Shown one piece after another: positions 14,241 to 16,970 of a stretch of 35,606 bases of DNA. The position numbers and the translations under genes were made by a program. The DNA lies in NCBI GenBank assembly GCA_021295755.1, contig JAGWBT010000103.1, forward strand, positions 19,967-55,572, in the 5' to 3' direction. Under the pieces are notes generated by a model, which was given only the letters and a program-made list of their open reading frames with translations, made no database searches and was not told where the DNA came from. The DNA is from Candidatus Poribacteria bacterium (GTDB lineage Bacteria > Poribacteria > WGA-4E > PCPOR2b). Within the stretch, counting starts at the first letter, position 1; every line of letters starts with the position of its first letter.

Positions 14241-14270
14241 TTGACACCGAAACTGGCATTATGATATGCT
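14241..14270 (+). promoter_or_regulatory. Sigma-70-type promoter of the leader-hisI-trpE-trpG operon
   Basis: Consensus -35 TTGACA (14241-14246), 18-nt spacer, -10 TATGCT (14265-14270). Transcription would start at about 14277, some 30 nt before the leader peptide ATG. It is the best-matching promoter in the window. Confidence 0.65.
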
Positions 14271-14306
14271 TTACGTAATCTGACAAGTAGGATGCTGAAA
14301 GGTACT

Positions 14307-14405
14307 ATGCAAACCCTGAACCGACAACCACAATTTCAAATCGCATCTCATCATTGGCATTGGTGGCATCGTGTTGAGGGGAGCAGTGTGCCTTTGCTGA
14401 GATAA
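14307..14405 (+). CDS. Dual His/Trp attenuator leader peptide
   Basis: A 32-codon open frame, ATG 14307 to TAA 14403-14405, preceded by GAAAGG (14297-14302). Codons 15-21 (14349-14369) read His-His-Trp-His-Trp-Trp-His (CAT CAT TGG CAT TGG TGG CAT), so seven consecutive codons are all His or Trp. It is followed within 60 nt by an intrinsic terminator and then by hisI, trpE and trpG. Known his and trp leader peptides carry runs of one of these residues; here both are interleaved and match the genes controlled. A ribosome stalled for lack of either charged tRNA would sit on this run. An in-frame ATG at 14292 would add five residues but has no properly spaced site. The frame is too short for ordinary gene callers. 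Confidence 0.85.
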   Translation: MQTLNRQPQFQIASHHWHWWHRVEGSSVPLLR

Positions 14406-14434
14406 ACCTTTGGATTCATATCTATAAAGCAAAG
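14365..14434 (+). promoter_or_regulatory. Attenuator pause (1:2) and antiterminator (2:3) hairpins
   Basis: Region 1 GGCAT (14365-14369, the last Trp-His codons) can pair with GTGCC (14388-14392) with one G-U. Region 2 CTTTGCT (14392-14398) pairs with AGCAAAG (14428-14434), and AGATA (14400-14404) extends this by pairing with TATCT (14419-14423). The 2:3 hairpin uses AAAG (14431-14434), the foot of the terminator stem, and an optional TGCC/GGCA pairing (14389-14392 with 14440-14443) would use its top. A ribosome stalled at 14349-14369 masks region 1 and favours 2:3. A ribosome at the stop codon (14403) masks region 2 and favours termination. Hand-drawn pairing; no energies computed. Confidence 0.6.
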
Positions 14435-14472
14435 CCGTAGGCATACGAACCCCGTTGTCTACGGCTTTTTTT
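14431..14472 (+). terminator. Intrinsic terminator of the His/Trp attenuator
   Basis: AAAGCCGTAG (14431-14440) pairs perfectly with CTACGGCTTT (14459-14468) around an 18-nt loop, and the transcript ends in seven Ts (14466-14472). It lies 25 nt after the leader stop codon and 31 nt before hisI. A terminator between a promoter and its structural genes, directly after a His/Trp-rich peptide, is the layout of transcription attenuation. Confidence 0.85.
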
Positions 14473-14503: not shown

Positions 14504-14884
14504 ATGGAAATTCTAAATCAGCTCAAAACCGATCAGAACGGTTTAATTCCTGCCATTATACAGGATGACGAAAACAAAGAGGTCCTCATGGTTGGCTATA
14601 TGAACCGTGAGGCTGTGCGGAAGACATTAGAATTAGGGCGTGTCTGCTTCTGGAGCCGCTCCCGCCAAGAATATTGGATTAAGGGGGAGACTTCGGGGCA
14701 CACGCAGACCGTGCGAACGGTCGCCTTTGATTGCGATGGTGATGCGCTACTAATCAAAGTCGAACAGAAAGGTGGGGCGTGCCACACCGGCTTCCGTTCC
14801 TGCTTCTTTCGGGAAGTCTCCCCCGATGGCAACTCTACGCGCATCGCTGGTGAAAAGGTTTTTGACCCAGATGCAGTATACTGA
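14504..14884 (+). CDS. hisI: Phosphoribosyl-AMP cyclohydrolase
   Basis: 126 residues; ATG at 14504 with AAGGAG at 14493-14498. It opens the purine ring of PR-AMP in step three of histidine synthesis. The metal and active-site residues are complete: DCDGD (76-80) and the zinc cysteines 93 and 100 in [13 protein letters not shown], together with SGHTQTVR. It is the single-domain form; the PR-ATP pyrophosphatase (HisE) is not fused. It is the first structural gene after the attenuator and lies 20 nt ahead of trpE. An isolated his gene in front of trp genes explains why the leader contains both His and Trp codons. Confidence 0.95.
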
Positions 14885-14904: not shown

Positions 14905-16364
14905 ATGTATTACCCAAACCTAGAAGATTTTAGAGAAAAAGCGCAACACGGAAATTTGATTCCTGTCTACAAAACTATACTAGCGGATATGGAAACACCT
15001 GTGTCCGCGTTTTACAAAATCGGAGGAAGTAACCACGCCTTCTTGTTGGAGAGCGTCGAAGGCGGCGAACATGTCGCTCGGTATTCGTTTCTCGGCAGTG
15101 ACCCATCAATCCTACTCAGAGGCAAGGGCAATCTGGTCCGGATTGATGACCTCCGCACCGGAGAAACCGTTGAACAGGAAACGGAAGACCCGCTAGAGGT
15201 ACTTGAAGAGTTAATGACTCGATACCAACCCGTCGAGGTCGAGGGATTGCCGCGGTTTCACGGTGGGGCAGTCGGCTACCTGAACTACGACATGGTGCGT
15301 TACGTCGAGGAACTCCCCGACACTACCGAAGATGATAGAGAACTACCCGATTGCTTTTTCATGGTCACCGATACGCTGCTTGTGTTTGACCATGTGAATC
15401 ATCAGATCAAGGTGGTCGCGAACGCTCACATCAATGGCAATGCTGACCAAGCCTATGAACAAGCACTTGATCGGATCGACGAGCTGATTGCTAAACTCAA
15501 GCAGCCGTTGTTGATGAATTATACGAACAAGCCGGCTGCAAGTCCAAGCGGTGTGCCTGTCACTTCAAACTTTACGAAGGAAGATTACCATCAGGTTGTC
15601 CTTCGGGCGAAGGAGTATATCGCTGCAGGAGACATTATTCAGGTTGTGCCATCGCAACGTTTCACTGTGCCGATATCGGTCGATACATTCGATGCGTATC
15701 GCGCTTTGCGTACCGTGAAAAGTTTGATGAACTCCAGATCGCTGGCGCCTCGCCGGAGATGATGGTGCGCGTTGAAGACGGTGTTGCGGAGATGCGACCA
15801 ATCGCAGGGACCCGTCCGCGTGGAGCGACTCCAGCCGAAGATGAGGTATTGGGGACGGAACTGCTTGCCGATCCGAAGGAACGAGCAGAGCATGTCATGC
15901 TCGTTGACCTCGGACGCAACGACTTGGGGCGTGTTTGCGAATACCACACTGTACGCGTGAGCGAGATGATGGTAATCGAACGGTACTCACATGTGATGCA
16001 CATCGTCTCACATGTTATCGGAGAATTGCGCGAGGGGCAAACCCCCTACGACGTGATTCGCGCCTGCTTGCCCGCTGGAACGCTATCCGGTGCCCCCAAG
16101 ATCCGGGCGATGGAGATTATCGATGAACTTGAACCGACGCGGCGGGGACCGTACGGCGGAGCCGTCGGCTACTTCAGTTTCTCTGGCAATGCGGATACTG
16201 CAATCACAATCCGCACACTTGTCGTCAAAAATGGTATTGCCTACGTCCAAGCGGGCGGTGGCATCGTCGCAGACTCTGTGCCTGAAACGGAGTACGAGGA
16301 AACGGTCAACAAGGCACGAGCGGTCTTAAGAGCAATTGAAATCGCTGAGGCTGGATTAGAGTAG
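14905..16364 (+). pseudogene. trpE: Anthranilate synthase component I, frameshifted by a short deletion
   Basis: Start ATG 14905 with AAGGAGA 6 nt upstream. Frame 1 (14905 to about 15718) carries the N-terminal domain including the LLES Trp-binding motif (residues 48-51) and ends properly at [10 protein letters not shown]. From about 15719 the -1 frame continues [32 protein letters not shown] and the [11 protein letters not shown] block to 16364. Between them the NPSPYM-x-x-L motif, present in essentially all TrpE proteins, is absent. Restoring family spacing requires 25 nt, which would give 494 residues, the normal TrpE length. The enzyme makes anthranilate from chorismate with TrpG. As written it cannot be functional. 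A real microdeletion or an assembly error is possible; the intact operon context argues for the latter. Confidence 0.88.
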
Positions 16365-16406: not shown

Positions 16407-16970
16407 ATGATACTTATGATTGACAATTACGACTCATTCACCTACAACCTCGTGCAATATCTCGGTGAGTTGGGAGCGAACCTCGTTGTCCATCGCAACG
16501 ACAAAATCACACTTGACCAAATCGAAGATCTCGCACCTGAGAAGATTGTCATATCGCCGGGTCCCTGCACACCGCGGGAAGCGGGGATCTCCTGCGATCT
16601 GATCCGTCAATTTGCTGGGCGTGTACCCCTTCTCGGCGTTTGCTTGGGGCATCAGTGTATCGGTGATGTGTTTGGCGGTGATGTCGTCCGCGCCGAACGA
16701 TTGATGCACGGCAAAACGTCAATGATTCACCACAATGACGAACAGATTTTCGACAACCTCGAAAACCCGTTTGAGGCGACACGTTACCATTCCCTCATTG
16801 TGAAAAAGGAGACGCTGCCCGATTGCCTTGAACTCACCGCGTGGACAAACCAGGACGAAATTATGGGATTTCGGCACAAGGACTATCCGATCTGGGGGGT
16901 ACAGTTCCACCCAGAATCGATCTTGACCAGCGAGGGGAAAAAACTGTTGAAGAATTTCCTAGAGGGGTAG
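16407..16970 (+). CDS. trpG: Anthranilate synthase component II (glutamine amidotransferase)
   Basis: 187 residues; ATG at 16407, AGGAG at 16394-16398. It is a class I amidotransferase supplying ammonia to TrpE. Nucleophile Cys79 in GVCLGHQ, His168 and Glu170 in QFHPES, and the N-terminal [16 protein letters not shown] block are all present. It could also serve as PabA in folate synthesis, as many TrpG proteins do. It follows trpE by 42 nt and is the last gene of the leader-hisI-trpE-trpG operon. A short stem-loop begins at the stop codon (AGAGGATA 16969-16976 with TGTCCTCT 16988-16995) but has no proper T-run. Confidence 0.94.

Follow-up and report, generated by a model that had tools for sequence, protein, structure and literature searches.

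A putative leader attenuator with interleaved histidine and tryptophan codons upstream of hisI-trpE-trpG in Poribacteria

Leader attenuators of trp genes that use Trp codons have been described in Corynebacterium and Streptomyces (PMC1262725). The hisL leader of E. coli contains seven contiguous His codons (PMC10989985), and His leaders that read this single amino acid have been described in Firmicutes (PMC9413887). The thr operon leader, as PMC10989985 cites it from Gardner (1979), carries tandem Thr and Ile codons. A 2010 paper named Proteobacteria and Actinobacteria as the only groups in which leader peptide systems had been shown, and added a His example from Firmicutes as new (PMC2965389).

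We analyzed a 35,606-nucleotide stretch of DNA (the window), belonging to genome G000, in which a short frame with interleaved His and Trp codons precedes hisI, trpE and trpG. The genome is from the Poribacteria, which are often sponge-associated. The leader resembles the trpL-type trp leaders of E. coli in its Trp codons within a short frame and in its competing antiterminator and terminator ahead of trpE, but it differs from trp leaders by the interleaved His codons, by hisI as the first gene, by the lack of an Rfam match and by its occurrence in another phylum. With the leaders of his operons it shares His codons, a terminator and an antiterminator before an operon that holds a his gene; unlike them, it would control one his gene only and has few His codons at most, mixed with Trp. 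The ilv leaders are another two-amino-acid kind besides thr; in both, a single leader reads several amino acids and opens its operon when any of them is short, as is proposed for the Poribacteria leader. The amino acids of the thr and ilv systems share a biosynthetic branch, whereas His and Trp are made by separate pathways with PRPP as a common precursor. In keeping with the original prediction, which knew of no interleaved His/Trp leader, our literature search, with most subscription papers outside its reach, found no described His/Trp leader; the phrase occurred in one paper only, a comparison of the his operon with the trp operon (PMC1183508). The same search found no described leader attenuator in the Poribacteria phylum.

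Organization of the leader locus and its competing helices

The promoter, the ribosome binding site and the 32-codon frame with its HHWHWWH run were all present as described in the original prediction, by sequence and translation (Table 1), and the terminator with seven Ts, followed by hisI, trpE and trpG, was confirmed by folding and domain matches. Apart from HHWHWWH, no run of His/Trp codons in the six frames of the window reached five, and the longest His/Trp codon run in 6 Mb of first-order Markov sequence was five; the run far exceeds chance expectation. TTGACA boxes of a similar kind also lie 5' of the leader in relatives, and the GAAAGG of the leader frame is unchanged in close relatives.

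Table 1. Coordinates of the leader locus and operon features in the window
Feature	Position	Strand	Details
Sigma-70-like promoter	14241-14270	+	TTGACA at 14241, TATGCT at 14265-14270, spacer of 18, TG preceding the -10 box
Shine-Dalgarno-like GAAAGG of the leader frame	14297-14302	+	Sequence
Segment 1, AAAGGUAC	14298-14305	+	Predicted partner, ribosome absent: GUGCCUUU of segment 2 (minimum-energy fold)
Leader peptide frame	14307-14405	+	32 codons; translation MQTLNRQPQFQIASHHWHWWHRVEGSSVPLLR
Control codons HHWHWWH	14349-14369	+	Codons 15-21; four His and three Trp
Segment 2 of the antiterminator, GUGUGCCUUUGCU	14386-14398	+	GUGUGCC portion conserved
Segment 3, AGCAAAG-CCGUA-GGCAUAC	14428-14446	+	Partner: segment 2 (antiterminator) or segment 4 (terminator)
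Intrinsic terminator	14434-14472	+	Stem-loop 14434-14465 (extendable to 14431-14468); seven Ts 14466-14472
hisI, phosphoribosyl-AMP cyclohydrolase	14504-14884	+	PF01502, E 5.6e-36
trpE, anthranilate synthase component I	14905-16364	+	PF04715 and PF00425; two frames in this assembly
trpG, anthranilate synthase glutamine amidotransferase	16407-16970	+	PF00117, E 2.3e-63

A point missed by the original prediction is that trpE of the window is split into two overlapping frames (14905-15762 and 15759-16364), with the interruption at 15690-15800. The trpE of relatives is one frame, about 25 nt longer than that of the window, and the split could represent either a true frameshift or an assembly error.

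The locus combines a leader frame with control codons, a terminator before hisI and an antiterminator that uses the 5' arm of the terminator, as expected of an attenuator. The GUGUGCC of segment 2, at the end of the leader frame, is complementary to the GGCAUAC of segment 3, which lies in the terminator's 5' arm and loop. Both helices were examined for covariation in 29 distinct sequences. The terminator helix was paired in 98% of cells, with eight of nine pairs changed on both sides; the antiterminator helix was paired in 95% of cells, with four of seven pairs changed on both sides, in an alignment anchored by hand on the segments and thus somewhat in their favor. The covariation scores of both helices exceeded those of all 500 shuffles, a comparison inflated by the relatedness of the sequences, and of all slid registers. 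The hairpin between segments 1 and 2 was clear in the minimum-energy fold of the window and was not predicted in many relatives. Rfam covariance models gave nothing at the gathering score and no leader family at E values up to 10.

In our folding model, the transcript ended at the terminator loop, and the ribosome occluded 15 nt counted from the first A-site base. The predicted antiterminator probability was 0.99 for A-site codons up to 22, 0.50 at codon 23 and 0.00 from codon 24; it was 0.01 without a ribosome, since segment 2 is then bound by the leader's 5' half. The predicted switch at codons 22-24 compares with control codons at 15-21, placing it at the codons expected for attenuation. 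The control codons would be the last stretch in which stalling leaves segment 2 free, and all seven should therefore give the same output. Among relatives with a recognized core, the last open codon lay 3' of the core, and in 50 of the 72 tallied it lay 3-5 codons after it. The terminator always prevailed in equilibrium folding of the full-length leader; the model therefore depends on kinetic competition and on the order of transcription. Such dependence on transcription order is as in known attenuators.

Conservation of the leader across the phylum

The search of orthologous hisI-trpE operons for a His/Trp-rich frame, which had been suggested as a check, recovered such a frame widely. Some 70 genomes of the phylum have a related leader, with an HWHWW core, ahead of hisI-trpE-trpG. 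In our sample of 85 genomes, the pattern CAYTGGCAYTGGTGG was matched in 53, almost always 5' of hisI, and the reversed control pattern in four. In genomes with the leader, hisI is followed almost throughout by trpE and then, where the contig permits, by trpG; in two genomes (G012 and G064) the leader and hisI lie on different contig ends. Second matches of the pattern in five genomes (G028, G079, G075, G081 and G016) were rejected as chance, since they lie inside coding genes in another frame. G037 has a hisI gene on each of two contigs (C3 and C149); the two genes differ, with 85% and 74% identity to the hisI of the window, each has an upstream His/Trp pattern, and the pair of loci is likely due to assembly contamination. 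In two related genomes (loci L173 of G075 and L179 of G081), an in-frame insertion of about 13-15 codons (EHWQCEAKTNSARVGRIWWHSN) interrupts the HW..WW core 5' of hisI.

An alignment of 64 distinct leaders by their cores bore out the conservation of the frame among relatives. The core's three Trp codons are retained in 62, 64 and 61 leaders, the central His in 63 (CAT in 58 and CAC in five) and the first His in 53, and the residues flanking the core differ from family to family. Distant members of the class use other orders of His and Trp, namely HHHWCWWHEG (G051), RWWWHWRG (G045) and WRHWHWRS (G047), and further reordered mixes are GHWHWGWCVW (G050) and YHRHWRR (G048). The hisI-linked leader of G042 reads HICWWPWWS, with one His only, three codons ahead of the Trp cluster. 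Every linked leader found has at least one His within or close to its Trp cluster; at five linked loci (in G016, G043, G052 and G053, and L012), a leader was sought and none was recognizable.

That the arrangement of His and Trp is constant in one taxonomic order is no evidence for an order-specific mechanism because a change from His to Trp needs three base changes. The interleaved arrangement is conserved, yet judging from these three changes and from the distant leaders it is probably not required.

Leaders of trpE-trpG without hisI

Four genomes (G040, G041, G014 and G011) have trpE-trpG without a preceding hisI, and their leaders read FWRWWWRSVLVCPRQE, NWCWWWRNEVRVCPTPD, KRWWYTSWGRSVPV and SRWRHIDRSGSVPV, respectively. 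These leaders are homologous to the linked ones, with similar terminators and GUGUGCC or GUGUGUC as segment 2. Three contain no His (NWCWWWR, FWRWWWR and RWWYTSW); the fourth, SRWRHI of G011, retains a single His beside its Trp. In the trpE tree, G040 and G041 lie near the linked G051 (support 89/85), and the leader HHHWCWWH of G051 shares W-C-W-W with NWCWWWR of the G040/G041 lineage. G011 and G014 adjoin the linked G016 (support 98/95), which has no recognizable leader. Three linkage changes have to be placed on this tree, whose midpoint root is uncertain, and well-supported branches force two or more of them. No other observation points as strongly to control of hisI as the reason for the His codons as the contrast between linked and unlinked leaders, which comes from four unlinked genomes in two lineages.

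Linked hisI also occurs on deep branches and in L012, whose genome was not placed in the set, and loss of linkage together with loss of the His codons would therefore be the simpler course in both lineages. A possible reverse route is that hisI was inserted into a Trp-only operon and the His codons were gained later. The unlinked hisI genes of G011, G014 and G041 are only 47-49% identical to that of the window, which suggests replacement by a different hisI.

The main alternative, which we consider rather unlikely, is an attenuator that senses Trp only, with the His codons as passengers or as elements of RNA structure, for example CAUUGG repeats that pair elsewhere in the leader. The Trp codons are indeed the constant, being present even without hisI; the central His is mostly spelled CAT, and conservation extends to some adjacent codons for other residues, TCC among them, chiefly in one family. 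Against this, the central His is as conserved as the Trp codons and tolerates synonymous change, distant leaders of other order and spelling still contain His, and His is mostly missing where hisI is unlinked.

Very unlikely, in our assessment, is a TnaC-like nascent-peptide arrest, in which HWHWW in the exit tunnel would stall the ribosome on a small-molecule signal. It would account for the conservation of the HWHWW order and adjacent residues within the taxonomic order, but in the other families of the class order and residues change while the His/Trp composition stays, and outside one family no residues are conserved at a fixed distance past the run. Pairing by segment 2 already accounts for the 3' end of the frame, and arrest would not predict that His tracks the linkage of hisI. 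A chance His/Trp-rich frame before an ordinary terminator, with no regulatory role, has a negligible probability, being contradicted by the chance expectation, the phylum-wide conservation and the covariation of the helices.

Leaders were also sought elsewhere. No His/Trp leader was found near the hisD and trpF of relatives, the only other his and trp genes sampled, and between hisI and trpE nothing leader-like was consistent among genomes. We rejected the idea that a missing trpF couples the pathways through a HisA/TrpF enzyme, as trpF is present in 12 of 13 genomes. G010, which is 95% complete, has no match to the trpF family PF00697, which might mean that one enzyme serves as both HisA and TrpF or that a stretch of sequence is missing.

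Proposed mechanism and significance

We consider it likely, from sequence and folding models, that the leader is a ribosome-mediated transcription attenuator sensing charged tRNA-His and tRNA-Trp as an OR gate. When His and Trp are plentiful, the ribosome would pass the run to the stop codon and mask segment 2, segments 3 and 4 would pair, and RNA polymerase would terminate ahead of hisI. When charged tRNA-His or tRNA-Trp is scarce, the ribosome would pause within the run and leave segment 2 unmasked, and the free segment would pair with GGCAUAC of segment 3 once this is transcribed, pre-empting the terminator. Expression of hisI-trpE-trpG would follow, with either shortage being sufficient. 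We infer the ribosome stalling, the kinetic competition and the response to both amino acids from these parts and their predicted geometry. The proposal that one leader serves both His and Trp gains support from the conserved codons, the covarying helices and the unlinked trpEG leaders. As in a two-amino-acid leader, the His and Trp codons are both conserved and tied to the genes under control, albeit with few unlinked cases.

Across the phylum, the best explanation of these comparisons would be a Trp attenuator with His codons in those operons that have hisI between the leader and trpE. We also find it reasonably probable, with less confidence than in the OR gate itself, that the two-pathway input evolves with operon content, the His codons being kept with hisI and lost or not gained without it.

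If true, joint reading of His and Trp by one leader would be described here for the first time, so far as the literature search showed. It would represent a regulatory logic that shifts codon by codon with the content of the operon, with sister lineages as ready-made controls, and it offers a testable reason why two pathways supplied by PRPP would be controlled together.
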